Positions 2,820 through 43,588 of a DNA stretch of 64,000 nucleotides are shown here, in pieces; the stretch's first letter is position 1, and every line of letters begins with the position of its first letter. The DNA comes from Parasedimentitalea marina. GTDB taxonomy: Bacteria; Pseudomonadota; Alphaproteobacteria; Rhodobacterales; Rhodobacteraceae. Position numbers and translations under genes: made by a program. Below the pieces are notes generated by a model that worked only from the letters and a program-made list of their open reading frames with translations, had not been told where the DNA came from and ran no database searches. The stretch spans positions 2,108,001 through 2,172,000 of the forward strand of contig NZ_CP033219.1 of NCBI RefSeq assembly GCF_004006175.1, in the 5' to 3' direction.

Positions 2820-2924
2820 ATGTGGGCGCAGTATAAAAACCTTGCTCCGTCAGGCTGAGATACGCACTGACGCCGCTAAGGTCAATGTTTTCGCTGTGTT
2901 CAGGCCGATTGGAGTACGACAAAC

Positions 2925-3386
2925 ATGAAGCTTTCGACAAAAGGGCGCTATGCCATGGTTGCATTGGCCGATATTGCGTTGCAGCCCACGGATAAATTGG
3001 TCGTATTAGGAGACATTTCAAAACGCCAAGATGTCTCCTTACCCTATTTAGAACAACTATTCGTCAAGCTACGCCGTGCTGAGTTGGTTTGTTCAGTGCG
3101 AGGCCCTGGCGGTGGGTATCGTTTGGCGCGCCCTGCGTCGGAGATTCGTGTCGTTGAAATCCTATCTGCGGTGGACGAGACGGTGGATGCTATGCATAAG
3201 GGCGCCGGTGCGTCAGGGGGGACGTCTGGTAGTCGGGCGCAATCGCTTACGAACCGTTTGTGGGAGGGGTTAAGTGCACATGTGTATGTGTTCCTGCACC
3301 AAACACGGCTATCGGATATCATCAACAATGACCTCGCGCCCTGTCCTGCAGTGCCGGGATTGTTTTCAGTAGTTGACGCTGAATGA
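2925..3386 (+). CDS. iscR: IscR-like Rrf2-family regulator lacking the cluster-ligand cysteines
   Basis: This 153-aa Rrf2-family winged-helix regulator heads the suf gene set. Its N-terminus (MKLSTKGRYAMVALADIA) and GPGGGYRLARP wing match IscR closely. In E. coli IscR three cysteines and a histidine in the loop after the wing bind a [2Fe-2S] cluster. Here that loop (HKGAGASGGTSGSRAQS) has no cysteine at all, the only cysteines being in LVCSVRG and APCPAV. Rhodobacter sphaeroides IscR is known to have an atypical, cysteine-poor ligation scheme, so the loss looks like a lineage trait. It probably autoregulates through the palindrome at 2805-2819. Confidence 0.88.
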   Translation: MKLSTKGRYAMVALADIALQPTDKLVVLGDISKRQDVSLPYLEQLFVKLRRAELVCSVRGPGGGYRLARPASEIRVVEILSAVDETVDAMHKGAGASGGTSGSRAQSLTNRLWEGLSAHVYVFLHQTRLSDIINNDLAPCPAVPGLFSVVDAE

Positions 3387-3440
3387 GCAGTCAGAATTAC
3401 AGTCTGTTTATGGCGGACAAAACCGGGAAAACATGTATCT

Positions 3441-4500: not shown

Positions 4501-6024
<1,524 letters not shown>

Positions 6025-30620: not shown

Positions 30621-30641
30621 GGGGCAGGGTTGACCTGCCCC
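30621..30641 (+). other. Hairpin between rpsB and tsf
   Basis: GGGGCAGG pairs perfectly with CCTGCCCC across GTTGA. It is followed by a short T-rich stretch (TTCGTTTTGATTT), so it could act as a partial terminator lowering tsf expression relative to rpsB. Confidence 0.65.
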
Positions 30642-30671
30642 AATTCGTTTTGATTTGAGGAGAGCCAAAAG

Positions 30672-31547
30672 ATGGCAATCACAGCAGCACTCGTGAAAGA
30701 ACTGCGCGACTCGACCGGCGCAGGCATGATGGACTCGAAAAAAGCCCTGACCGAAACCAATGGTGACATGGAAGCCGCCGTTGACTGGCTGCGGACCAAG
30801 GGTCTGGCCAAGGCAGCAAAGAAATCCGGCCGTACCGCCGCTGAAGGCCTAGTAGCTGTAAGCGTTGAAGGTACCAAAGGTGTCGCGGTAGAAGTGAATT
30901 CAGAAACCGATTTCGTCGGAAAAAATGCTGAATTCCAAGGCATGGTCAGTGACATTGCTAAGGTTGCACTGAGTGTAAACGATGTTGACGCACTGAACGC
31001 AGCAGATATGGGCGGCAAGACTGTCGCTGAAGTAGTAACAGCCAAGGTTGCAACTATTGGTGAGAACATGTCGGTGCGCCGTATGTCCGCACTTGAAGGT
31101 GACCTGGTTGTTTCATACGTCCATAATTCGGTTACGTCCGGAATGGGCAAAATCGGTGTTCTGGTTGCATTGACCGGTGGTGACGAGGCTTTGGGCAAAC
31201 AGATTGCGATGCACATTGCAGCTGTAAATCCGGCCGCACTGAGCGAAGCCGATCTGGACGCTTCGGTTGTTGAAAAAGAAAAACAGATCCAAATGGACAT
31301 TGCCCGCGAGTCTGGCAAGCCGGAAGCTGTTATCGAAAAGATGATCGTCGGCCGTATGAAGAAATTCGTCGGTGAGTCGACATTGCTGAACCAATCGTTT
31401 GTAGTGAACCCTGATCTGACCGTTGGTGCTGCAGCCAAAGAAGTCGGCGCAACAATTACTGGTTTCGTTCGTCTTGAAGTTGGCGAAGGCATTGAAGTTG
31501 TGAAGGAAGACTTTGCGGCTGAAGTCGCCAAAGTTTCACAAAGCTAA
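30672..31547 (+). CDS. tsf: Elongation factor Ts
   Basis: EF-Ts, the nucleotide exchange factor for EF-Tu (291 aa). The N-terminal ubiquitin-associated-like domain has [18 protein letters not shown], and the core has [18 protein letters not shown] Shine-Dalgarno precedes it. Two strong terminators follow, marking the end of the operon. Confidence 0.97.
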
Positions 31548-31590
31548 TATGGTTATCCAGCGGTTTTGAAGCTGGACATATATAGACAAG

Positions 31591-31632
31591 ATGAGACCCG
31601 GCTCCGGACAGGTGCGGGTCTCATTTTTTTTC
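31591..31632 (+). terminator. Rho-independent terminator of rpsB-tsf
   Basis: ATGAGACCCG (31591-31600) pairs perfectly with CGGGTCTCAT (31615-31624), directly followed by a run of T residues. This is textbook intrinsic termination. Confidence 0.92.
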
Positions 31633-31655
31633 TGTGAGTTCCTTCTGGTACAAAA

Positions 31656-31685
31656 AAACGGAGCCGCGTTACCGCGACTCCGTTT
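31656..31685. terminator. Second, bidirectional-looking terminator
   Basis: AAACGGAG-C-CGCG pairs with CGCG-A-CTCCGTTT around a TTAC loop, one mismatch. It has an A-run before (31652-31658) and T-rich sequence after (31683-31692), so it can work on either strand. Confidence 0.8.
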
Positions 31686-31692
31686 CTTTTTC

Positions 31693-31950
31693 GAAGGGTC
31701 CCTCAAGATGGGGATGGAAGAAACCCTTCATTGACTTCCGGCTTGATGCCATCAATACGCACCCAACACGAAAAACGGGCTAGACTAGTTTAAAATAAAA
31801 ACGCCTTCACTCGAATGTCCCTTTGGCTAAAGCCACCACTCACGGAACAATTGTAGAATGCAATTATTCTCGTTTTGGTGGAAGTAGTGAATACCTTACT
31901 TGCTCGGGTAGATTGAAACACAAAAAAAGACAACCACTTGGAGATTGAAG
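31693..31950. other. Gap between terminators and luxR-type gene
   Basis: About 260 bp without a recognisable gene. An imperfect pairing of GAAGGGT (31694-31700) with ACCCTTC near 31723-31729 is present. Nothing else stands out. Confidence 0.4.
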
Positions 31951-32706
31951 TTAAGCTTCCATCACAAACATCTGGTTCAGCAAGGCAGCCTTCAGTACAG
32001 CCTGCGCGGTGGTTTCAACGCTCAAGGAATCTCGTGCGAGACGTAAATGTTTTTCAACCGTGGCGGACGTTAAGCCCATCAGTATAGCAATATCCTGAGT
32101 GGTCTTTCCGTCACCGACCCATTGCAAAGCCTCGCGCTGGCGCTTGGTCAAGCCACGATTAGGAGGAGAGTAGGGAAGTGACAGAATTTTAAGATGGGTG
32201 ATGTTGTTGATCAGGGTAATATCTTCACCGTGCTCGAGCCACATCTCATCCAAATGTTCCTGTGTCAGATCACGCTTGCCTGCCAGGGAAATCGCACCTT
32301 TGAATCGCCTTGAAATGGAATGAAAGCTAATTGTGTAACCCGCAGTCATTCCCATACGTTTATTAAACTCAATAACCTTTCGGCCTTCTGTACTTAACTC
32401 CCGATTGGCGTCCATTGCGTGTACTTGGCGCCAGCTACACGCGCCCTCATTCTCCAAGGCCCAGCGTGTCATTGGAGCATGAAAATAAAGTCCAGTGTGC
32501 ATAAACCCTTTAAGGTACTCACTCGAGTGATTGGAAAGAATGACAAAATCATCTGGATCGCCAAGTGACGTTTCGGTTTTGTATCGCGTATAACCATAGA
32601 TCAGCCGGTCAAAACCGTACTGTCCCATTTGGTCAATATGACCGACCCAGAGCTCCTCCAGGCTTCGGCTGCCAGATACAAAATGCAGATATTCCGTCAG
32701 CTTCAT
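31951..32706 (-). CDS. LuxR-family regulator with autoinducer-binding-type domain, coupled to aroQ
   Basis: A 251-aa regulator starting MKLTEYLHFVSGSRSL. The start at 32706 lies one base after the aroQ stop (TAA-A-ATG), so it is coupled; a longer frame would run inside aroQ. The N-terminal 170 residues resemble the acyl-homoserine-lactone-binding fold and the C-terminal helix-turn-helix is GLTKRQREALQWVGDGKTTQ followed by DIAILMGLTSATVEKHL. In the ligand region the usual Asp-Pro reads Ala-Pro (YFHAPMTRW), so it may bind another ligand. No luxI gene is nearby, making it a solo LuxR. Confidence 0.85.
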   Translation of the reverse strand: MKLTEYLHFVSGSRSLEELWVGHIDQMGQYGFDRLIYGYTRYKTETSLGDPDDFVILSNHSSEYLKGFMHTGLYFHAPMTRWALENEGACSWRQVHAMDANRELSTEGRKVIEFNKRMGMTAGYTISFHSISRRFKGAISLAGKRDLTQEHLDEMWLEHGEDITLINNITHLKILSLPYSPPNRGLTKRQREALQWVGDGKTTQDIAILMGLTSATVEKHLRLARDSLSVETTAQAVLKAALLNQMFVMEA

Positions 32707-32707
32707 T

Positions 32708-33160
32708 TTAACTGCACTCTTCCAAATGGGCCAATAGAGCACTGATTGCCATCGTGTACCCCATAGATCCAAATCCACAAATTTGCCCAAGTGCTACTTT
32801 TGATATGTAAGACAACTGCCGAAAATCTTCCCGTGCGTGGATATTTGAAAGATGAACCTCGACACAGGGAATTTCTACGGAAGCCAGCGCATCCATAAGG
32901 GCAATTGACGTATGAGTGTAAGCTCCCGCATTCAGAACGATACCTTGGTGATGTCCCTTGGCGGCGTGTATGGCGTCGATCAAAGCACCTTCGTGATTAG
33001 ACTGGTGACACACGACTTGAGCACCTTGAGACTTGGCGTGCTCAATGCAGTCATTGTCGATCATGTCCAAAGTGACCAGTCCGTATACGTCAGGCTGTCG
33101 AGTCCCAAGTAGATTTAGGTTCGGACCGTTCAGAACCAGGATACTACGCATTACAATCAA
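32708..33160 (-). CDS. aroQ: 3-dehydroquinate dehydratase, type II
   Basis: A 150-aa dodecameric type II dehydroquinase of the shikimate pathway. Its motifs are LNGPNLNLLGTRQPDVYG (with the catalytic Tyr), NAGAYTHTS and VEVHLSNIHAREDFR. The C-terminus GFGSMGYTMAISALL is also typical. It is directly followed by the luxR-type gene, an unusual partner for a biosynthetic enzyme. Confidence 0.95.
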   Translation of the reverse strand: MIVMRSILVLNGPNLNLLGTRQPDVYGLVTLDMIDNDCIEHAKSQGAQVVCHQSNHEGALIDAIHAAKGHHQGIVLNAGAYTHTSIALMDALASVEIPCVEVHLSNIHAREDFRQLSYISKVALGQICGFGSMGYTMAISALLAHLEECS

Positions 33161-33375
33161 TTCCTTTTACTCATTATCGTGCGGATTATGCCAGCCATCG
33201 CTGAAAGTCGAAAGGGAACTTACAAAATACTCGCCTTTTCTCAAATAAACTTGCCCATTGGGGCAAAAATACAAGAACGATTATCATCACAGAAACAGTA
33301 CTCTAAAGTACCTGCTCTAAACCAAAAGTGCGTTTAGCATGGCTGCAAAGCCAGTCGGGGGCACAACTTTTTCTC

Positions 33376-34371
33376 TTACCCGTTGGTCAAGACTACTTTG
33401 CCTAACACATTTCTATTTTGCAGCATCTCAAGTGCCTGTTTGGCATCTTTCATATCGAATCGTGCACCTATATGAGGTTTAATTTTTCCGGCAATGTAGA
33501 GGTCAAATAGTTCCGACAAGTTCTGCAAATGTGATTTGGGATCTCGGAGTACTGACGCTCCCCAAAATACGCCGAGGATTTGGCATCCTTTCAACAGTGT
33601 CAAATTCAAAGGAATTTTGGGAATGCCGGCAGGGAACCCAACGACCAAATACCGTCCTTCCCATGCCAATGTACGCAATGCAGCTTCCGCATAATTCCCA
33701 CCAACGGCATCGTAAACAATATCAACGCTCTCATTTCCCGCTAGCTCTTTGATACCACGCGTAAAATCCTTTTGCCCGGTCCGATCAAGTTCTTTACTGT
33801 AGACAATTGTTTCATCAGCACCAATGTTCCGACAAAACACCGCTTTTTCCTCGCTCGACACTGCCGCAATAACGTTTGCACCTGCGGCTTTTGCCAGTTC
33901 AATCGCTGCAGCCCCAACGCCGCCAGCTGCTCCGAGAATTAGGAGAGTTTCTCCGGACTGGATCCGGGCGCGATCCTTTAATGCGTGGTAAGACGTGCCA
34001 TAGGTAAAGATAAAACAAGCGGCTTCTTCAAAAGTCATTTGCGACGGAAATTTGATAGCTTGATCAGCAGAAATGCAAATATGGGTGGCAAAACCGCCAT
34101 GACCCGTCAGCGCCAAAACACGGTCGCCCAGTGAGAAGCCTTCGACATCCTCTCCAATGCCTATGACCCGTCCAGAAATTTCACCACCGGGGGCAAAGGG
34201 GCGAGGGGGCTTCATTTGGTAAAGGTCTCGAATGATTAGTGTGTCCGGGTAGTTAACCCCCGCAGAATGAATGCGAACTAGCAGTTGACCAGGTGCTACA
34301 TTTGGATTTGGAATTTCGCTCCATTCCAAGGTTTCTGGGCCGCCCGGAGCGGTGCTGAGCATTGCCTTCAT
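33376..34371 (-). CDS. Zinc-free NADPH:quinone oxidoreductase-like MDR enzyme
   Basis: A 331-aa medium-chain dehydrogenase/reductase of the quinone-oxidoreductase type. The GroES-like N-terminal half ends near 120. The cofactor loop is LGAAGGVGAAAIELAKAAG, a pattern close to the AAxGGVG of NADPH-binding QOR/acryloyl-CoA reductases. Catalytic zinc ligands are absent. Neighbouring genes for a phosphotransferase and SDR suggest CoA or lipid metabolism; the substrate is unknown. The 215 bp before aroQ hold no gene. Confidence 0.85.
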   Translation of the reverse strand: MKAMLSTAPGGPETLEWSEIPNPNVAPGQLLVRIHSAGVNYPDTLIIRDLYQMKPPRPFAPGGEISGRVIGIGEDVEGFSLGDRVLALTGHGGFATHICISADQAIKFPSQMTFEEAACFIFTYGTSYHALKDRARIQSGETLLILGAAGGVGAAAIELAKAAGANVIAAVSSEEKAVFCRNIGADETIVYSKELDRTGQKDFTRGIKELAGNESVDIVYDAVGGNYAEAALRTLAWEGRYLVVGFPAGIPKIPLNLTLLKGCQILGVFWGASVLRDPKSHLQNLSELFDLYIAGKIKPHIGARFDMKDAKQALEMLQNRNVLGKVVLTNG

Positions 34372-34745
34372 TTTGCTTTCTCCTTGATTTGACCTGAGCG
34401 AGCCAAAGTTACGTCAAGTCTTCTTTCCACCGACAGCGTTGTCAATGAAATTGCAAGATGCAATTCTGTTCAGAGGCGAAATATTCGTCTGGTACCCGTT
34501 CATTCACTGAGGCTACGATAACAATGGCTGAGATTACCCATAAACCATTCATTCGAAAGACTAATGGTATTGAGGATGAAGAGACACAACTACGCCTCAC
34601 ACTGAACGGTTCACCATAGGCACTGTTACCTTAAATTTGATTGCAGCACGTCCAAGGAAACGGAACTGAAATGTTCGAAAATAATCAAATCATCGAAATT
34701 TGAGTGCTCGTCAATTCAGCGACATAATCACATGGGAGACAAATA
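34372..34745. other. Divergent promoter region, no gene recognised
   Basis: This 374-bp AT-rich interval separates two divergent genes. I see a GGGAGA Shine-Dalgarno for the downstream GTG start at 34746 and no convincing frame or dyad. Confidence 0.45.
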
Positions 34746-35774
34746 GTGTCATCTGAGAATACAGCCCTGGATCTCATTGCCGTTGAGGCTTACTTGCGTG
34801 CTCACCTTCCAAATTTCGCGGGTCCGTTAAGCGCTGTCAAATTTGAAACAGGACAGTCAAACCCGACCTTCCTGCTGAAAACACCCGCGCGCAACTATGT
34901 ACTCCGACGTAAACCCATGGGGGTTCTGCTAAAATCAGCACATGCCGTAGAGCGCGAATTTCGCATTCAAAAAGCATTGATAGCTTCGAATGTTCCGGTC
35001 GCAGGTATGCATTTACTGTGCGAGGATGAAGACATCATCGGGTCATCATTTTATATCATGGATCATGTCGTCGGGCGAAATTTCGTAGAGCCAACACTTC
35101 GCGGCCTGGACGGATCGGAGCGAATGCAAGTGTTTGAGAATATGGGGGAAGTTTTGGCAGACCTTCATATGGTAGATATTAATGCAGTGGGCTTGTCCGA
35201 CTATGGCCCCGCCGGCAACTACTTTGAACGTCAGCTGGCCCGCTGGACCAAACAATATCGCTCCACGGAAACCGAGCGTATTCCCGAGATGGACACGTTG
35301 ATAAAGGAATTGCAGTCAACATTGCCACTAGATGACGGTCAACGAAGTTTGGTTCACGGTGACTATCGCATAGATAATCTGATTTTTCAGAATAACGGTA
35401 CGCAATGCCTTGCCGTTTTGGACTGGGAATTGTCAACCATTGGGCATCCTTATTCAGATCTGGCTGGGGTGATAATGCAATGGCAAATGCCCCAGGGACC
35501 TGAGGGCCGTGGTCTTTTAGGTGTCGATCGCGAAGTTAATAATATTCCTTCAGATCAAGAGTTTATGGATATGTATTGCGCCCATCGGGGCCTACCAGGG
35601 ATCGAGAGTTTTGAATTCTATCTTGCCTTCAGTTTCTTTCGCATGGCCGGGATCCTTCAAGGCGTTCTGAAACGCGCAATGAGCGGAAATGCCTCGAACC
35701 CCGAACGGGCAAAGAAACTTGGGCAATATGTTCCGCTTTTTGCTCGGCACGGGCTGGATGCTCTTTCAAAGTAA
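34746..35774 (+). CDS. APH-family phosphotransferase (ACAD10/11 N-domain-like)
   Basis: A 342-aa aminoglycoside-phosphotransferase-fold kinase with a GTG start preceded by GGGAGA. The catalytic loop is LVHGDYRIDNLIF and the metal-binding motif is LDWELSTIGHPYSDLA. This is the subgroup usually placed beside acyl-CoA dehydrogenases and SDR enzymes in alphaproteobacteria, where related human ACAD10/11 phosphorylate 4-hydroxyacyl-CoA. A role in hydroxyacyl-CoA breakdown is plausible but inferred. Convergent with the SDR gene. Confidence 0.87.
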   Translation: MSSENTALDLIAVEAYLRAHLPNFAGPLSAVKFETGQSNPTFLLKTPARNYVLRRKPMGVLLKSAHAVEREFRIQKALIASNVPVAGMHLLCEDEDIIGSSFYIMDHVVGRNFVEPTLRGLDGSERMQVFENMGEVLADLHMVDINAVGLSDYGPAGNYFERQLARWTKQYRSTETERIPEMDTLIKELQSTLPLDDGQRSLVHGDYRIDNLIFQNNGTQCLAVLDWELSTIGHPYSDLAGVIMQWQMPQGPEGRGLLGVDREVNNIPSDQEFMDMYCAHRGLPGIESFEFYLAFSFFRMAGILQGVLKRAMSGNASNPERAKKLGQYVPLFARHGLDALSK

Positions 35775-35920
35775 GTATCTTCTTGATCTTGGACAACAGG
35801 ACCGGAATCTCTTCCGCGGAATTGGTTAGGGCGGAGAAACGCCAACACGCATCTACGTCGCTCAAGAGGGATTAATGCGCCCAACAAAAAGTTGAAGAAT
35901 GACTTCCAATGCATTGGCAG

Positions 35921-36688
35921 TTATAACTTTTCATAGGATCTCTTTAGTTTTTGCATGCCTCGTATCCAACGGTCATAGTCCGTCGTTTTGGCGCGCATGT
36001 AGCCCAGGACCTTCCGATGAGGTAATATAAGGAACCTTTCACTTTCAATAGCCTCGATACAGGCCAAGGCCACGACATCTGGCTCTAGAATTCCATCAAT
36101 ACTCGCAACCTGGTTTTCCAGACCATGTATCATGTTTGAACGAACGGCCTGAGGGCACAATACAGATACACCGATCCCGGAATCACCGTAAGTGATTGCC
36201 AACCATTCTGCAAAACCGACCGCTGCATGTTTTGTCACGCCATAAGGCGCGGCGCCGATTTGATTTAACAGGCCTGCAGCAGAAGCAGTGTTCAAAAAAT
36301 GTCCGCCACCGCGCTCTATCATTTTGGGCACCATGTGTCGAGCGGCCCACACATGAGACATGACATTGATATCCCACGTTTTTTGCCAGCTATCGTTATC
36401 AACTTCGACACCGCCCAGCGTCAGAACTCCTGCATTTGAGCAAAACAGATCAATAGGAGCGATTGTCTCCTCAACGTATGAGATCAGGTCAGAAATCTGG
36501 CCTTCGAACCTGACATCCACTTGCATTGCCGTCCCATTGATTTCTGCAGCAACTTTCTTAGCTCCTTCGATATCTATGTCGGCGCAAATGACATGTGCGG
36601 CTCCTTTCCGAGCGAGAGCGTAAGACAGTGCACAACCAATCCCATTTGCAGCTCCTGTGACCACAACACATGATTTTTCAATAATCAT
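35921..36688 (-). CDS. Short-chain dehydrogenase/reductase
   Basis: A 255-aa classical SDR. The cofactor loop is VTGAANGIGCALSYAL with an Asp at the end of strand 2 (CADIDIEG), pointing to NAD(H). The catalytic residues are a serine in NTASAAG and YGVTK. It is adjacent to the left edge of the phage region and convergent with the phosphotransferase gene. Substrate unknown. Confidence 0.88.
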   Translation of the reverse strand: MIIEKSCVVVTGAANGIGCALSYALARKGAAHVICADIDIEGAKKVAAEINGTAMQVDVRFEGQISDLISYVEETIAPIDLFCSNAGVLTLGGVEVDNDSWQKTWDINVMSHVWAARHMVPKMIERGGGHFLNTASAAGLLNQIGAAPYGVTKHAAVGFAEWLAITYGDSGIGVSVLCPQAVRSNMIHGLENQVASIDGILEPDVVALACIEAIESERFLILPHRKVLGYMRAKTTDYDRWIRGMQKLKRSYEKL

Positions 36689-36755
36689 TTATCTATCCTT
36701 TGTCGTGCTTAGAAGTTTACGCTGGCCCAAGATGTCAGGCAATCAAACTTCACCT

Positions 36756-36783
36756 ATAATACATAATACTGATTATGCGTCTA
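36756..36783 (-). other. dif-like XerCD site, left edge of prophage (attL)
   Basis: On the minus strand this 28-mer reads TAGACGCATAA, spacer TCAGTA, then TTATGTATTAT. E. coli dif is GGTGCGCATAA-TGTATA-TTATGTTAAAT. The inner palindromic arms CGCATAA and TTATGT match exactly, with the same 6-bp spacer. It sits 68 bp after the SDR start and 30 bp before the first phage gene. Microviridae prophages are known to use dif via host XerCD. Confidence 0.75.
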
Positions 36784-36813
36784 ATTCAACGTTAAGTAGA
36801 TTAGGGGCTAAGA

Positions 36814-37032
36814 ATGAAATGGCTAACAAACGAAATTCTCGGACCTCTCGCCCGTCGCGTCGGCGGTCAGGCCGGAGCTGCTCTTGTGGCTCTGGGCGTG
36901 GCTCAACAGCACGAAAGCGCAGTGGCGGCAGTCGTCGCATGGGCAATCGTAAGCGTCGGTGAATTAGCCGTAAGCTCACGGGGCCGCAAAAATCTTGCGG
37001 ATACTGCAAAGCAAGCATGGGGAACTAACTGA
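36814..37032 (+). CDS. Microvirus small protein with hydrophobic centre
   Basis: A 72-aa product with an excellent Shine-Dalgarno (AGGGG, 6 bp before ATG). The middle is Ala/Val-rich and hydrophobic (SAVAAVVAWAIVSVGELAV), flanked by polar ends. It could be membrane-active (holin-like) or a minor virion protein. Its TGA overlaps the next ATG (VP2) as TGATG, the usual phage coupling. I do not recognise a family. Another frame overlaps it almost completely (36819-36962). Confidence 0.65.
   Translation: MKWLTNEILGPLARRVGGQAGAALVALGVAQQHESAVAAVVAWAIVSVGELAVSSRGRKNLADTAKQAWGTN
36819..36962 (+). CDS. Overlapping arginine-rich frame, possible J-like packaging protein
   Basis: Inside the previous gene, in another frame, an ATG 5 bp downstream opens a 47-aa frame with 15 Arg and 3 Lys (MANKRNSRTSRPSRRRSG at its start, ending NRKRR). 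Microviridae J proteins are small, extremely basic DNA-binding proteins, and overlapping genes are typical of the family. The caution is that arginine-rich shadow frames arise easily opposite alanine-rich genes in GC-rich DNA, so this may be chance. Confidence 0.35.
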   Translation: MANKRNSRTSRPSRRRSGRSCSCGSGRGSTARKRSGGSRRMGNRKRR

Positions 37033-37969
37033 TGGTTTTTCCCGCTAATTGGGGCTTTTCTGGGAACAGCAGGTGGCGCGGCGGCTATTACTGCCGGTTC
37101 TACTCTGATCGGTGGTGCGCTAAATCGTAGGGCCGAAAAAAAAGCCAATGCGGCGAATAGTCCCGCTAGCCAAGTGGCACAATGGGAAGCTGCCGGAATT
37201 AACCCTGAATTTGGGATTAGTTCCGGTGCGTATATTCCTCAACAAGCTACATCAATGGGCGATAGCTTTGCCGCTGCTGGCGGTCAATTCGCCCGTGCGC
37301 TTGACTTGAACCATGAGAAAGGACTTCGCGAAACCAATATTGAATTGGAAAACGAGAAGTTGCGCAAGGAAATCGATATTCTTGCCAACCCATCAGATCC
37401 ATCATATATGCAGAGATACGGGGGATACTCCCCCTGCCCTCTGTTGGTGGTTATAGTTCTCATGCAAGATCTAGTGTTCAAGCTGTTTCTGGTTCTGGTT
37501 CTGACGATATTCTTGGGTCAGACGGGGCTCCTGAGTTAAACCAGGGCACTGTCACGTCGGCCCAAGACTTTGGAAGCGGTACTTGGGTTGACACTCGGGT
37601 TAGAGACGCGGAAGTGTCTTCCGATCGCTATGGCGATATTGCCGAAGAGGCCGCTGGCTTTCGCAATCTTTACATGGATGCTTTCGCAATCTTTACATGG
37701 ATAATGTGTATAATGAGCGGCTTGGTGCCTTAGGCGACCAATATGGCCCTCACATTGCTAACGAAGTTCATGGCGAGTACGAGCGGGCGGATGGTCGTAC
37801 TAACGACCAAGTTATATCGGACGTAACGGACGGAAAGCCTACCACCTTAAGGCCTAAATTTCGCACTTATCCCGAAATGTCTGTTCTTCATGACAATTTT
37901 GAATCCGGCATTGTTCCCCTTTGGGGGACTGGTGAATATTCGGAACATATGCGCCGTTTGTATCCATAA
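37032..37969 (+). pseudogene. Microvirus DNA pilot protein VP2, three frame disruptions
   Basis: The product, when read across frames, is a VP2-type pilot protein: a hydrophobic Gly/Ala-rich N-terminus (LIGAFLGTAGGAAAITAG), then VAQWEAAGINPEFGISSG, the family hallmark AAGINP, and an acidic coiled-coil segment (RETNIELENEKLRKEID). The start ATG overlaps the upstream stop, but a 1-bp gain in T5C3 (37036-37043) shifts it. A 1-bp loss near 37420-37434 shifts it again. A 23-bp tandem duplication at 37657-37702 shifts it a third time. The C-terminus ends SEHMRRLYP at 37969. Repaired length would be about 304 aa. Confidence 0.85.
37657..37702. repeat. 23-bp exact tandem duplication inside VP2
   Basis: Two identical 23-bp copies, 37657-37679 and 37680-37702, start GCTTTCGC and end ACATGGAT. 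Removing one copy restores the reading frame across NLYMDNVYNERLGALGDQYG. A true slippage event is more likely than a sequencing error. Confidence 0.95.
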
Positions 37970-38004
37970 CGGCTTCTATCCCCCTCTAAAATCTAGGAAA
38001 AAAT

Positions 38005-39553
38005 ATGAACTAAGCAAATCCACGACTCGCAATCCGTCAAGAGTTTAACGGCCAGCGCCGTTTGCGCCCTTGGTCTAATGCTCACTTTGGCGGAATGAAG
38101 GCTGTTGAGGCCCATCCGCTGGCAATCTGTCGTTTCCGTCCCGATGAAGGCGGAACCGTATCCTCAAGTCTTAGGGTCGGTCTTGCGCCGCTCAGTGGGC
38201 ACATGCGTAGTAAGGCCTATGTTGAGGTGACGCAGGTTGCGGTGCCTTATAAAGCCATTGAAAAGCTTTTGCTTGATGGTCAAGAGGATGCCGGGGTCAC
38301 TGAAATGTCCCGACGCCGCCTTTTGGCTGGTGAGGGTTTTGGCCTTGAGGACCAGGGGCAGATTACAAAAGCGGCAAACATCCACCCGCGAAGCGTCGGC
38401 GGTAATAAGCGGGTTACTAAAACCGCTCGGGCTGCTTACCTTTGTGCAGGTAATCATTTGCTCAAAGTTGCATACTTTAACGCAACCCCTGCGCCCCATA
38501 CCGAAACGGCAAATTTGCCGGCTCTTTTAACAGCGAATGTTCTTGAGCGGTTTAATGGCGTTCTTGAGCCTGAAAGGCTGGTTGATGGGGTTGTCAATTT
38601 GACGGGTGAACTACCCATCAAGGGTATTGGTACCCGTATTCGTGATTTCGACACCGTCAATTCGGATTCTTATAAAGAGTCTGGGGAGACTGCTCCTAGG
38701 CAGGTTACTGGTTGGCAAGTTGGCGATGGTCATGGCAACAACTCCGTGATTTTGGAACAGGACCCTGATGATCTTGATTTTCCTCTTATCCGTGCTGATC
38801 TTGACGGTGTTGGCGAGCTTACGTTTCGCGATATGATGGCTAGCCAAAAGTTGGACGGTCTTATTCAGAAATTTGCCCAAATGATCAAGGCAGATCCTGT
38901 CAATGGTGAAGAGGCTGTTGAGCGGGCTTTGTATGGCATTAAAGTTGACTATGACCACAATTGCCAAGTGTTGTATCGAAAGGTACATGAACTCACTGCT
39001 GTGCATCAGCGGCCAATGGATGGCGCTTCAATTAACGATGTGTCAGCGCATTTTGAGCTTAATAGCGCCTTTACATCTTTGGTGCCGGTTTCTGAGTTGG
39101 GCTTGCAGTTAGTTACTATTGTATCTGTCAAGCTGCTCGAATCGCTGACCCATCAGCCGGACCCTGCCCAAACTTAAACTTGGGAATTGGTGAACCGCGT
39201 TCACGACAAAACGGAGCTTGATGAAGTTCTTCTTACTCGTGCTGATTTGGAAAGTAAGGTTCTTACACACAATGAGGACTAAAGGGCTTTCTGGGTGGGT
39301 CACAACTCAGGGCGTGAACGACCAACAAGTTGCTGGCGTCGAAATGAAGACCTCCATGTGGACTTATGAAATTCCGACCTCTGTTACGCCAAGCAACGTT
39401 AGCTACCCGGCGGAAGGTATTACTATGTATCCGTTTCATAATTGGAACGGGGCGCATGCTGAATACACCTTCTCGCAGGTGGCGGCCATTTCCACATCGC
39501 ACGCCAAGGGCCCGAACCCTGTAGAACGTATTCAACTCTTCGCTGATGATTAG
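38005..39553 (+). pseudogene. Microvirus major capsid protein VP1, with nonsense and frameshift mutations
   Basis: The real start is ATG at 38005 with AGGAA 5 bp upstream. The third codon is TAA (38011-38013), after which the frame runs cleanly (ANPRLAIRQEFNGQRRLRPW, then VGLAPLSGHMRSKAYVEVTQ). A second TAA at 39175-39177 interrupts it, followed in the same frame by TWELVNRVHDKTELDEVLLT. A +1 shift near 39275-39285 leads to the C-terminal capsid segment MKTSMWTYEIPTSVTPSNVS and YPAEGITMYPFHNWN, ending at 39553. Repaired length about 516 aa fits Microviridae capsids. A 1-bp loss at 39549-39551 may have removed a further acidic tail running to 39666. Confidence 0.87.
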
Positions 39554-39655
39554 AAGCCACTGAGGCTGTCACAGAGCCTGTTGCGCCTTTGGTCGGCGTC
39601 GGGCCGCGCGAGGACTTGGCAGATACCTCCGTCAATGAACCGGAGGTAAGCACCG

Positions 39656-40166
39656 ATGAAACGTGATCCAGCTATGGGTGAGCCGCGTAAGCGCCTCACA
39701 AGAATGCGCTACGGCGTTGGTCCGATGGGCTTTTTGGCCGATCAGATTATGAAGGAATTACAGCGGGCGGGTTATCCCCCCCCGCGAATTCAATCTGTAC
39801 CGAACGCCAGAGCAACAGGCCAAATACCTATCGGGGGGGACCTCGCAGGCAAAGGCCTATACTAGTGCACATCAGTACTATGGTGCGTCCGATATCATCC
39901 ATGAAAAATGGGCGTGGTTTGACAAGCGACAGAAAGGCAATGTGCCTGACGGTACACAGTTTTGGGACCGCCTCTGGGATTGCGTCGAGGTCGTTGGCGA
40001 AAAATTCAACGTTGAGTGCAGTGACCGGCTGTCTTGGGACCCTGCACATGTGCAGTTGGCAAACTGGCGCGAATTTCGCGAGGTTGTCGGCCTCAAAGAG
40101 CCGAACCAGATGCAACTTGACTGGTATTTCCAGATCACGCTCCCGGCTGTTTGGAAGCAGCACTAG
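39656..40166 (+). pseudogene. Microvirus M15-type peptidase (endolysin-like), frameshifted
   Basis: Read across one frameshift the product is about 169 aa. The N-terminal 44 residues (MKRDPAMGEPRKRLTRMRYG) run into a C8 homopolymer at 39776-39783. Dropping one C joins them to REFNLYRTPEQQAKYLSGG. The peptidase M15 signature SxHxxGxAxD is seen as SAHQYYGASD, and the C-terminal ligand motif DxxH as WDPAHVQL, so all three zinc ligands (His, Asp, His) are present. Such peptidases cleave peptidoglycan stem peptides. A lysis function is inferred from the phage context. Confidence 0.8.
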
Positions 40167-40197
40167 CGCAGCAAGCAACGCGCTACATAGGCAACGT

Positions 40198-40223
40198 AGA
40201 GGCCCCCTTTAAGGGGGGCCTCT
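40198..40223 (+). other. Strong GC-rich hairpin upstream of the Rep gene
   Basis: AGAGGCCCCC pairs with GGGGGCCTCT around a 6-nt loop, a perfect 10-bp stem between the peptidase stop and the Rep start. It may be a phage intergenic terminator or part of a replication origin region; there is no T-run. Confidence 0.7.
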
Positions 40224-40283
40224 GCGGCCCGATACATCCCCCTTGTTCCTGTATACATTTAATGACACCCTCGGATTGAAACA

Positions 40284-41264
40284 TTGTGCACTAACCCCCC
40301 CATATTCAATGGCTACGAAACAAGCTGTCGCGAGTGCGATGAATGTGTGGCTACATATAAAAACACTTGGGTTTCTCGTTGTGTGGCTGAAAAGCAAACA
40401 ATGCCGCACGCTTATGCCATTACTTTCACCTATGCGGATATAACAGAAGAAATCGATGGTGAGTGGATCACTGAGCCACCGCTAGGCGCTCGGGTCTATC
40501 GGTATAAAGATGTTGAGCTTATGTGGAAGCGCATAAGATCTGCCGCTAACCGCAAGTGGAAAAACGAAGAATTCGAAATGCGGTACGTGATAGTTGGGGA
40601 AAAGGGCACTCGTTTCGGGCGGTGTCATTATCATGGCGTCGTCTTTGCCACTCATCCAATAATTGAGCTTGGCAAGATAACCAGCAGAAAAGGCAACGAA
40701 TTCGCTTATAAACGACGCCTAAACTGGAGTATTTGGGGGCACGGATTTGTTGAGTTCCAAATCGCTGACCGTAAGGGAATAGCCTACTGCCTCAAATACA
40801 TCCTAAAAGCCCGCATGACCGCTGAGCGCTCTAAGGGGCATAAACGCGAGGGCAAAACGGAGTGGCTCGCAAGCTCCTATCTTTGGTGCTCCAAAGTTCC
40901 AGCGATTGGGTCAAAGTGGCTTTGGGGTAAACTGAATGATCTCCTGAGTAAGGGGATGTGCCCACCTGCCCTGCGTGTGCGGGTTCCCGGCGGTGGTGAC
41001 TGGTATGTAAGCGGTAAGCTGCAAATGGAAATGTGTCTGTTTCTGCATCAGGCAAACAATGAATATCAGCAATTGCGAGGGCGTAACCTCGCTGGCTGGT
41101 TGACACTGATAGAAAGTGTCCAGGACGAAATTGAAAATTCTGAAACTGGTGAAATCTGTAAACGAAAACCATGGGAGTGGCTTGTCAATGGCGAAGAACT
41201 GGAAGAAAACCCCGAACACACAGCGGAGCAGGCGCAGGCCGACTTCAACGCGCTCAAGGAGTGA
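40284..41264 (+). CDS. Microvirus replication initiator VP4 (rolling-circle Rep)
   Basis: The 326-aa product begins at TTG (40284) with CTNPPIFNGYETSCRECDEC, matching microvirus Rep N-termini. The HUH-like metal motif is RCHYHGVVF (His115, His117) and the nicking motif is AYCLKYILKA with Tyr168 and Tyr172 spaced YxxxY, as in phiX174 gpA-type initiators. No stop or frameshift is seen, so it is the best preserved phage gene. The TTG start has no good Shine-Dalgarno, so it may have lost an ATG. The 3' end overlaps the following frame by 77 bp. Confidence 0.9.
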   Translation: MCTNPPIFNGYETSCRECDECVATYKNTWVSRCVAEKQTMPHAYAITFTYADITEEIDGEWITEPPLGARVYRYKDVELMWKRIRSAANRKWKNEEFEMRYVIVGEKGTRFGRCHYHGVVFATHPIIELGKITSRKGNEFAYKRRLNWSIWGHGFVEFQIADRKGIAYCLKYILKARMTAERSKGHKREGKTEWLASSYLWCSKVPAIGSKWLWGKLNDLLSKGMCPPALRVRVPGGGDWYVSGKLQMEMCLFLHQANNEYQQLRGRNLAGWLTLIESVQDEIENSETGEICKRKPWEWLVNGEELEENPEHTAEQAQADFNALKE

Positions 41265-41646
41265 GTGGTACGCCCACAAGCGTCGGATCGCCGCGCCGAT
41301 CACGAACGCAAGGGCGACACTCCGTAATTGTGGGCACATCGTCCCTTGTGACCTCTGCGCCAGCGAGGTTGACACAGGAAACCTTGCCGACCTCGAGCAA
41401 GAGTACCTCCTACGGTTCTCAGAATGGCAGGAAAGACATTCGCAAGGCTCGAGGGAACAGGCTGGGGACTACGAAGAGAGATTCAAGGAATGGTGGCTTA
41501 CACGCCTCCGAGCTTCTCGGGGATGCGTACTACGAGAAACCGACCTCCTCCAAGAACAGTTCAAAAGGCTTATCCCCGTCACCAAAGCGCAGCACGGTCT
41601 CACCTACAAGGGAGCCGTTGGAAAAGCGCTGCAAGGAACGTCCTGA
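41188..41646 (+). CDS. Phage-associated 152-aa protein of unknown function
   Basis: It starts at ATG 41188 inside the 3' end of the Rep gene. The N-terminus is strongly basic (MAKNWKKTPNTQRSRRRPTS), then NCGHIVPCDLC gives a small cysteine cluster, followed by a charged helical part (NLADLEQEYLLRFSEWQERH) and a basic tail (LQEQFKRLIPVTKAQHGLTY). The balanced composition and long uninterrupted frame favour a real gene. I recognise no family. It might bind nucleic acid. Confidence 0.6.
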   Translation: MAKNWKKTPNTQRSRRRPTSTRSRSEWYAHKRRIAAPITNARATLRNCGHIVPCDLCASEVDTGNLADLEQEYLLRFSEWQERHSQGSREQAGDYEERFKEWWLTRLRASRGCVLRETDLLQEQFKRLIPVTKAQHGLTYKGAVGKALQGTS

Positions 41647-41781
41647 CAGTCGCGAAGCAAGAAAGGGTAACGGGGGCTCTAGGCCCTTCGTTCCATGGTG
41701 CGATAGAAAAAAAACGACTAATCCAAAAAACAGCGAAACCAAGGGGGGGCAATGCCTCCCCTTTTGTTGTCAACAATAGCC

Positions 41782-41816
41782 TGAAAACGGAAACTCCAAA
41801 TATTGGAGTTTTCAGG
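41782..41816 (+). terminator. Hairpin at end of phage transcription unit
   Basis: AAACTCCAA pairs with TTGGAGTTT around ATA (41791-41812), with the outer bases CCTGA and TCAGG also complementary. A short TTTT is part of the right arm. Probably the phage terminator, in a gap of about 700 bp that holds no recognised gene. Confidence 0.6.
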
Positions 41817-41974
41817 CGGGGAACCTGCCAAAACCCAGCATAGCTAGCTATTCGTCCAAGACGCGCGGTAAAGGCAAAAAATAGCCCGACAAAATCAGGA
41901 AAAAATTGACAACTTAAGGCTGAACTGCAAAGGAATAGTCAAAAAAGCTATGGACAACCTAAAGAATGTGTGAG

Positions 41975-42003
41975 ACACAATATGTAGTGCGCATCCTGCG
42001 CAC
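41975..42003. other. Possible degraded right att site and adjoining inverted repeat
   Basis: ACACAA-TATG-TAGTGCGCA on the plus strand has the order of the left dif-like site (XerD arm, then XerC arm with TGCGCA). Two bases seem missing from the spacer and the match is partial. GTGCGCA-TCC-TGCGCAC at 41987-42003 is a perfect 7-bp inverted repeat. This is only a candidate. Confidence 0.3.
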
Positions 42004-42364
42004 GGGTTAGCGCATTTATCTAGTAATATCAGGTAAATAGTACTGATTTTCAGAGTTTCTATATGCTATGAGTGCGCGCTATTTCCAACTGCTACTATAG
42101 TTAGAAAACAGTGGTAACTTTGCCTAACCACCGTTCGCCAACAAAACCAGAGCGACACTGTATAGAGCACGATGTATTCCAAGATGGTAACAGCTTTAGG
42201 AACAGTGCTTTATTGGACCTCAGTCACAGGACTGGCCTGCGACGGCCTTGAATGGAAGGCCTCCAAAGAGGTCTTCCAAGGGAAGATGCTGTAGGAACAG
42301 TAATGATGTTCCTACCTTGAATCTCACGAGGTATCACCATTTAAGAAACGCTCTCACGGAATAC
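42004..42364. other. Gap to gcdH, with a hairpin at its 3' side
   Basis: About 360 bp with no recognised gene. GTAGGAAC (42291-42298) pairs perfectly with GTTCCTAC (42308-42315), about 50 bp past the gcdH stop on the minus strand, and may serve that gene's transcript end. The rest is unassigned and could include phage remnants. Confidence 0.45.
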
Positions 42365-43588
42365 TTAGAAAAAGGCTTGCAACCCTGTTTGCGCACGCCC
42401 AAGGATCAACGCATGTACATCGTGCGTGCCCTCATATGTGTTGACTGTTTCAAGATTCATCATGTGGCGTATAACCTGAAATTCCAGCGAAATACCGTTT
42501 CCACCATGCATATCACGGGCGTGGCGTGCGATTTCGAGTGCTTTTCCACAGTTATTTCTTTTCACAATTGAAATCATTTCAGGAGCTGCTTTGGCCTGAT
42601 CCATCAAGCGACCTACTTGCAATGAAGCTTGAAGACCTAACGAAATTTCGGTCTGCATATTGGCGAGTTTCAATTGGAATAACTGCGTTTGTGCCAATGG
42701 TCGATTAAACTGGTGCCGGTCCAACCCATATTGACGCGCGGCGTGCCAACAGGCTTCAGCAGCCCCCATTGCACCCCAGCTGATGCCGTAACGCGCACGG
42801 TTCAAGCAACCAAATGGACCTTTTAGCCCCTGGACATGAGGCAGCAATGCATCCTCACCAACCTCAACACCGTCCATCACAATTTCACCCGTGATTGATG
42901 CTCGCAACGACATCTTGTTTTCAATTTTCGGCGCTGTCAGGCCCTTCATGCCTTTGTCGAGGATGAAGCCACGTATTTTATTCCCGTGTTCCTCTGATTT
43001 TGCCCAAACAACAAACACGTCCGCAATCGGTGCATTTGAAATCCACATTTTGGATCCGGTCAGTTTATACCCGTTTTTTGTCTTTTCGGCGCGCGTTTTC
43101 ATGCCCGAAGGATCAGACCCGGCATCCGGCTCTGTCAGGCCAAAACATCCAATAAATTCGCCGCTCGCCAATTTAGGCAAGTACTTCTGCCGTTGCTCTT
43201 CACTTCCGTAAGCATAAATTGGGTACATAACCAATGAACTTTGAACAGACATCATTGACCGATAGCCGGAGTCTACACGTTCTACTTCCCGGGCAACCAA
43301 ACCGTAGGCAACGTAGCTGCCGCCCAATCCACCGTACTCCTCGGGAATCGTTGTACCGAGCAGACCCATGTCTCCCATTTCCCGAAAGATTGAGGGATCG
43401 CATTCTTCGTTGGCATATGCACTGTTCACGCGGGGTTGCAATTTTTCCTGCGAATAGGCCCGTGCCGAGTCCGCAATCATTCGCTCGTCTTCACTAAGCT
43501 GGTCACTTAGACGTAAGGGATCGGTCCAGTCAAAACTGCTCAGATCCGGCGCATCTTTGGCGCGAAGCTCCGGTTTGGTATGGGCCAT
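42365..43588 (-). CDS. gcdH: Glutaryl-CoA dehydrogenase
   Basis: A 407-aa flavoprotein of the acyl-CoA dehydrogenase family, oxidising and decarboxylating glutaryl-CoA to crotonyl-CoA in lysine and tryptophan breakdown. FAD-binding segments are [20 protein letters not shown] and KMWISNAP. The catalytic glutamate lies in [20 protein letters not shown]. Length is typical. It is divergent from a LysR regulator 103 bp away, the usual GcdR arrangement. Confidence 0.94.

Follow-up and report, generated by a model that had tools for sequence, protein, structure and literature searches.

The 64,000-nucleotide stretch of the Parasedimentitalea marina genome analysed here (the window; positions 2108001-2172000 of the 4,417,125-bp contig C1 of genome G000) carries a decaying provirus of the Microviridae, small phages with single-stranded DNA; it sits in the chromosome's own dif site at the replication terminus. 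The provirus occupies positions 36767-42040 of the window and is present in a single copy in the contig. It measures 5,274 bp between spacers, inside the 4-7 kb range typical of microvirus genomes, with one of its genes partly gone. We put at about 0.88 the probability that the host recombinases XerC and XerD placed an integrase-free microvirus into the chromosomal dif, and that the provirus then decayed along with its right attachment site. A preliminary description of this DNA had already proposed a decaying microvirus in the chromosome, and microvirus homology, stops, frame changes, a duplication and a lost gene all bear this out. Beyond that description, the insertion site is the chromosomal dif and the right end is worn.

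Identity of the provirus

The genes of the provirus all lie on the plus strand, in the order 72-aa frame, VP2, VP1, putative peptidase, Rep and a gp10-like frame that overlaps Rep (Table 1). This is also the order in Rhodobacter phage Ebor, in Ascunsovirus oldenburgi ICBM5 and in L027, a provirus of an uncultured member of the Rhodobacteraceae (CANMIX010000004.1). The open part of Rep matches the replication initiation family phrog_942 (E 3.3e-36) and PF23343 (E 1.1e-14), and its HxH (H115, H117) and YxxxY (Y168, Y172) motifs, the HUH-type and tyrosine motifs of rolling-circle Rep proteins, are the same in all three sequences when it is aligned with Ebor and Ascunsovirus. This part of Rep matched 1,225 phage records, with Ebor (33% identity) and Ascunsovirus (32%) at the top. 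Of 50,697 phage records, the capsid piece 38062-39174 matched two at E<=1e-5. These are alphaproteobacterial microviruses, with 29.6% and 30.4% identity. The preliminary description had staked its case on such homology, and the lack of similarity that would have overturned it did not occur. An intact homologue of the capsid (P0009) matched 9ffh, a solved structure of 511 residues labelled 'Major capsid protein', at E 4.5e-70; judging from its length and from the Ebor paper, this structure is probably the Ebor capsid. Capsid homology and the structure reached through P0009 together support a microvirus-type capsid with a single jelly roll.

Other assignments depend on relatives, since profile searches of the window pieces against Pfam and PHROGs recognised Rep alone and gave no match for the capsid, VP2 and peptidase pieces. 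VP2 is 52% identical over 37099-37440 to the L027 protein encoded upstream of the capsid gene, i.e., its pilot protein, which itself has a weak match to the PHROG pilot protein (E 2e-4). The peptidase homologue in L029 (the same contig as genome G350) matches VanY at E 6.3e-5, short of the Pfam cut-off, and that of Ascunsovirus at 0.023; the window piece showed no VanY match in Pfam, and the label 'peptidase' for 39656-40166 is tentative. Of the core genes named in the preliminary description, Rep with its two motifs, capsid and pilot protein thus stand, while the peptidase leans on the VanY match of L029. The gp10-like frame has a counterpart in Ebor Gp10, a virion protein according to the note in its record. 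The host belongs to the family that also includes Candidatus Rhodobacter lobularis.

Decay of the provirus

Lesions were read mainly by tblastn against L027, the frames of which are open. Stops or frame changes interrupt VP1, VP2, the putative peptidase and Rep alike, and another gene is largely lost. VP1 has in-frame stops at 38011, 39175 and 39280 and a frame shift near 39302-39309. VP2 is split over two frames and contains an exact tandem duplication, and nothing matches its first 37 residues. In the putative peptidase gene the frame shifts near 39777, where eight C follow one another. The last 124 residues of Rep continue in a different frame from 41263. The gp5 protein of L027 (154 aa) found no match in the window by tblastn at E<=1, and 102 bp stand in the place of its gene. 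Besides the first 326 aa of Rep, the frames that remain open in the provirus are 36814-37032 and the gp10-like 41171-41779. The adjacent host frames (331, 342, 255, 407, 303 and 176 aa) are all open.

Attachment sites at the replication terminus

The hexamer TACTGA occurs only twice between 35.5 and 43.5 kb of the window, both times between dif-like arms, and these two sites bound the provirus. The left site (attL) is a complete dif with the sequence ATAATACATAA-TACTGA-TTATGCGTCTA. A 36-base stretch containing it has no other match in G000 at up to 3 mismatches, and the pattern ACATAA-N6-TTATG is found once on C1, at attL, and once each on the secondary replicons C2 and C3. The right site (attR), CAGGTAAATAG-TACTGA-TTTTCAGAGTT, is worn: its XerD arm begins with TTTT, as against the TTAT of host dif sites. 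The near end of an insertion sequence (IS) of IS30 type lies 21 bp past this TTTT, which is the spacing from the TTAT of dif seen elsewhere (see below), so attR appears to retain the old host side, the XerD arm, of dif. The preliminary description gave the extent of the element as 36756-42003. This start coincides with the first base of the left dif, and the end lies about 40 bp further on, the right spacer being at 42041-42046. A further sequence close to the dif core, at 2338484 of C1, lacks a second arm and was judged a chance occurrence. The dif-type sites on the secondary replicons (C2:84012-84028 and C3:218236-218252) have a common spacer, CCCCTA, unlike the TACTGA of the chromosome.

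The place of the provirus on the chromosome is that of dif. GC skew is positive in 21 of the 22 stretches sampled to the left of the site. Of the 20 on the right, 19 have negative skew and the remaining one is the last 20 kb of the contig, which presumably lies beyond the origin. A motif of the FtsK-orienting polar sequence (KOPS) type, GGGNAGGG, shows the same polarity, with forward to reverse counts of 72:8 on the left, 7:62 on the right when the last stretch is excluded, and 5:2 in that stretch. Within the window the motif points rightward at 2295, 21717 and 30622 and leftward at 37432, 39162 and five sites past the provirus. By these directions the two polarities meet somewhere from 30622 to 37432, an interval that suits attL and not attR. 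The provirus in G350 likewise lies at a KOPS flip.

Empty sites in congeners

In the genome of a congener, G003, the same two genes enclose one dif-like site and an IS30-type element but no virus. Its dif and IS end align without a break to attR and the IS remnant of the window (73% over 81 columns). In a second congener, G005, a dif-like site without virus stands 126 bp from the same acyl-CoA dehydrogenase gene. VP1 was sought in both genomes and found in neither. The preliminary description had looked to an empty interval between SDR (short-chain dehydrogenase) and gcdH genes in relatives, and G003 provides it, with a virus-free dif between the two. The left neighbour is indeed a short-chain dehydrogenase by PF00106; the name gcdH holds to the level of acyl-CoA dehydrogenase.

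Ends of related proviruses

The asymmetry of the two ends recurs among relatives. Paired sites with identical spacers bracket the genes in 7 of 8 related provirus loci. In these seven the left XerC arm always ends in CATAA and the right arm never does (7/7 and 0/7), and when right flanks were shuffled a CATAA pair arose in 1 of 2,400 runs. The annotated attP of Ebor, which lay outside the paired-site search, has the same form, TTTTTCCGATT-TACTGA-TTATAGGATTT, its XerD arm being good and its XerC arm poor. From the asymmetry in the loci and in this attP we infer that the viral site brings the spacer and the XerD arm but no good XerC arm. Among further genomes, G134 has one left site only and G237 none. 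On the Nioella nitratireducens contig L031 (5837-11561 and beyond), two provirus copies follow one another at a distance of 5,724 bp, and a dif-type site marks where they join; the arrangement could reflect tandem insertion or an effect of assembly.

Mode of insertion and alternative explanations

These comparisons suggest a scheme in which a microvirus without an integrase of its own would have been inserted at the chromosomal dif by host XerC/XerD. Its attachment site would have offered a good XerD arm, the 6-bp spacer of the host and a poor XerC arm. Insertion would then rebuild a complete dif at the left, from the host XerC arm and the viral XerD arm, and leave a second-rate site at the right, from the viral XerC arm and the host XerD arm. 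Virus genes and right site would decay afterwards. With a complete dif rebuilt at the left, the host would be able to continue resolving chromosome dimers; with virus genes and right site decayed, the provirus probably can no longer leave. A search of Pfam for a recombinase found none among ten frames of the window (E<=0.1) and none among the six of seven L027 frames that were scanned (E<=0.01). We lean, with less assurance than for the insertion itself, towards a chimeric working dif, in which selection for dimer resolution maintains the viral XerD arm as the remaining viral sequence and the right site degrade. If so, half of a site essential to the host has been taken over for good by a dead virus, and every insertion by a virus whose XerD arm is good and whose XerC arm is poor would rewrite the host dif in the same direction.

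Several points weigh against this interpretation. The locus was resolved in two of the seven congeners, G003 and G005. The paired-site search required TTAT on both sides, so that TTAT in the right XerD arms is there by construction, and its presence at the seven loci does not by itself prove that the TTTT of the window is decay. Among the related loci, L032 lacks a paired right site, which might be another worn one, and the right site of L031 is the join between its tandem copies. The cumulative skew maximum, calculated for the window minus the provirus, falls at 32,215, 4.6 kb left of the junction, and skew alone would not fix the site to the base. Lastly, the two full-length XerC/XerD-like genes (XerD family) score 303.9 and 240.7 against a TIGR02225 cut-off of 329.6.

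The skew offset would also suit insertion into a dif-like site near the terminus other than the working dif, as would the case of Ebor, which according to its description entered the cbbII operon and not the terminus (PMC11980548). This we regard as improbable, given that ACATAA-N6-TTATG appears nowhere else on C1, that the KOPS flip falls within 30622-37432 and that G003 and G005 have a dif-like site at the same place. Slightly less improbable, though still doubtful, is that the provirus is being kept for a purpose of the host, for example to make the cell immune to related microviruses by means of the Rep piece, of the small frame or of the gp10-like one. The first 326 aa of Rep, the 72-aa frame and the gp10-like frame do remain open; Rep is, however, shortened and starts with TTG in place of the ATG of L027 and Ebor, and the open frames are possibly chance survivors. 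VP1 occurs in 1 of 8 genomes of the genus, that of the host.

Two further explanations place the error in the data. Microvirus reads are common contaminants of assemblies, and a free phage or contaminant contig could have been joined to the chromosome, a danger that the preliminary description had itself raised. The provirus is instead a single copy within the 4.4-Mb contig, has dif-type sites at both ends and flanks that are continuous with the empty site of G003, and its genes are broken in ways that a replicating phage would not tolerate; a false join is therefore hardly credible. It is also very unlikely that the provirus is real and intact and its frame changes are sequencing errors. The frame change in the peptidase gene, at the run of eight C, is in a typical place for an error and taken alone could be one, but the remaining lesions do not all fit: VP1 has three in-frame stops, VP2 a 23-bp duplication, one gene is largely lost, frame changes occur outside long runs, and the nearby host frames are open. 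Insertion by host XerC/XerD into the chromosomal dif, with later decay, accounts for these observations best.

Table 1. Provirus, attachment sites and neighbouring features, in window coordinates
Feature	Position	Strand	Evidence or detail
Host short-chain dehydrogenase, left neighbour	35921-36688	-	PF00106, E 6e-38
attL, complete dif	36756-36783	+	XerC arm 36756-36766 (host); spacer TACTGA 36767-36772; XerD arm 36773-36783 (probably viral)
Small 72-aa open frame	36814-37032	+	67% identity to L027 frame 5791-6003
VP2 (DNA pilot protein) remains, two frames	37033-37969	+	tblastn to L027 VP2: 37099-37440 frame 1, 37428-37688 frame 3; weak Ascunsovirus match
Exact 23-bp tandem duplication within VP2	37657-37702	+	direct repeat D2, 100% identical
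VP1 (major capsid protein) remains	38005-39553	+	tblastn to L027 VP1, 61% and 64%; Ascunsovirus, Ebor
Short interval at the place of the gp5-like gene of relatives	39554-39655	+	gp5-like (145-175 aa) in L027 8597-9061, Ebor Gp5, Ascunsovirus 2913-3440
Putative peptidoglycan peptidase remains	39656-40166	+	pieces 84% and 71% identical to L027; Ascunsovirus
Rep (VP4) N-terminal 326 aa, open, HxH and YxxxY	40284-41264	+	phrog_942, PF23343; 72% to L027
gp10-like open frame overlapping Rep	41171-41779	+	47% to L027 over 41240-41701; weak Ebor Gp10 and Ascunsovirus matches
Rep C-terminal part, other frame	41263-41634	+	70% to L027 Rep residues 325-448
attR, worn	42030-42057	+	XerC arm 42030-42040 (probably viral, poor); spacer TACTGA 42041-42046; XerD arm 42047-42057, from TTTT
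IS30-type element remnant	42068-42356	+	left end to 42115, right part 42236-42356, middle missing; matches G003 element
Host acyl-CoA dehydrogenase, right neighbour	42365-43588	-	PF02771, PF00441, PF02770

Comparison with known systems

Both the kind of provirus and the class of mechanism are already known; the chimeric, frozen dif is a reading that the present case would sharpen. The preliminary description held integrated microviruses to be rare. They are less unusual than that, as temperate microviruses of the Rhodobacteraceae are mentioned in PMC9239249, and such viruses with dif-like sites are published for Rhodobacter (PMC11980548). Integrase-free proviruses of Bacteroidetes microviruses (BMV1-7; Krupovic and Forterre 2011) are likewise bounded by dif-like sites, and use of XerC/D was proposed for them (PMC3091885). 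They differ from the present provirus in the phylum of the host, and their position relative to GC skew was, according to their authors, not testable (PMC3091885).

Ebor (PP754850; proposed Tainavirinae), which also exists as a prophage in R. capsulatus DE442, resembles the provirus in the order of pilot, capsid, gp5, lytic gene and Rep with overlapping gp10. Its attachment site too is of dif type, with TACTGA as the spacer and with arms of which that for XerD is good and that for XerC poor (PMC11980548). Ebor differs in being intact, with 6,611 b and a methylase-like gene, in a capsid that is about 30% identical, and in its lytic gene, Gp7 of Ebor having no match in the window. The Sulfitobacter microvirus Ascunsovirus oldenburgi ICBM5 (OM782324) has the same gene set, including the type of peptidase, at 30% (capsid) and 32% (Rep) identity; a TACTGA-TTAT dif-type site was not found in its record. 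L027 is of the same lineage, with 63% identity in the capsid, 72% in Rep, the same layout and paired sites that have a good left and a poor right XerC arm. Its seven frames are all open, its spacer is TACACA and its right XerD arm begins with TTAT.

The Vibrio phages CTXphi, VGJphi and TLCphi, integrative mobile elements exploiting Xer (IMEX), use host Xer at dif and differ from the provirus in being filamentous (review PMC5357621). TLCphi is reported to alter or rebuild dif, for CTXphi, and its attP keeps the XerC side and diverges on the XerD side (PMC5357621), the mirror image of the present provirus. Features of IMEX seen in the provirus are that no integrase was found, that both ends are dif-like with a common spacer and that it lies at the terminus. 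A circular 5.4-kb Microviridae 'prophage' that has phiX-type names in Pfam and was described from three roseobacter genera at 100% identity (PMC8224337) looks like phiX174 sequencing control DNA rather than a prophage of broad host range, and for this reason was not used as a precedent.

The value of the present case is that a chromosome in one contig ties the position of the provirus to skew and KOPS polarity, and that the worn copy can be compared with intact relatives and with the empty dif of congeners. The statement that such viruses probably use XerC/D becomes a testable scheme that says which of the arms the virus brought, what lets the host survive and why old copies stay. The case bears on how these phages enter, on their tolerance by the host and on their possible trapping.

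Relatives of the capsid

Searches of a large protein set with the capsid piece gave 72 matches, including that of the window itself, headed by a Pseudophaeobacter protein (68%). Within the family, 9 of 394 genomes, the host counted, have a capsid match at E<=0.001, two of them weak (G069, E 1e-12; G049, E 1e-6). The lineage occurs in Pseudophaeobacter, Tritonibacter and metagenome contigs, and is 28-30% identical to Ebor and Ascunsovirus. More than 60 relatives at 48-68% identity lie mainly on contigs of a few kb, many of about the size of a microvirus genome. In a quick capsid tree, from which a length filter (>480 aa) dropped 6 of 71 database proteins, the window fell in a clade of 66 rows apart from a 13-row clade with Ebor and Ascunsovirus (support 100). 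Grouping with Ebor, of the proposed Tainavirinae, was thus not seen in this tree, which did not include that subfamily's own reference set. Among the viral contigs of IMG/VR none was related to the capsid piece alone, and a 14-row alignment recovered two contigs at 29-31%, so IMG/VR as scanned holds no close kin. By these comparisons the capsid appears to represent a little-described microvirus lineage, to which none of the 50,697 annotated phages in the search is close.

The IS30-type element beside dif

The transposase of the G003 element, to which the remnant beside attR corresponds, combines HTH_38 and rve, which we take to mark an IS30-type transposase. In a search that allowed 8-36 bp between TTAT and the IS end, all seven hits had a distance of 21 bp. 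Twenty-one left ends of the element were collected from 6 of 12 genomes. In 11 of them a TTAT precedes the end by exactly 21 bp, and in 14 by 20-23 bp; several copies have common flanks and are not independent. The remaining seven comprise the TTTT of the window, one TTAC at 22 bp and five ends without such a site. Three of the five genomes of the spacing search (G117, G262 and G395) gave no match to the 33-base end pattern, so the elements there are more distant or different. The dif-side IS site lies at a KOPS flip in G020 and G395.

The element looks like a dif-targeting insertion sequence. Elements of the IS1202 family are known 5 bp away from dif sites, on the XerC side (PMC10132070); the present one lies on the opposite, XerD side. 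Our search of the literature for IS30 elements with dif showed no such report among the records listed, and this element may be a newer finding than the provirus. IS30-type elements next to the XerD arm of dif or dif-like sites were seen in the window and at C2:2400, C2:84049 and C3:218273 of the host genome, and further copies stand by such sites on C1, C2 and C3 of G003, C38 of G002, C97 and C175 of G007, and C1 of G020.

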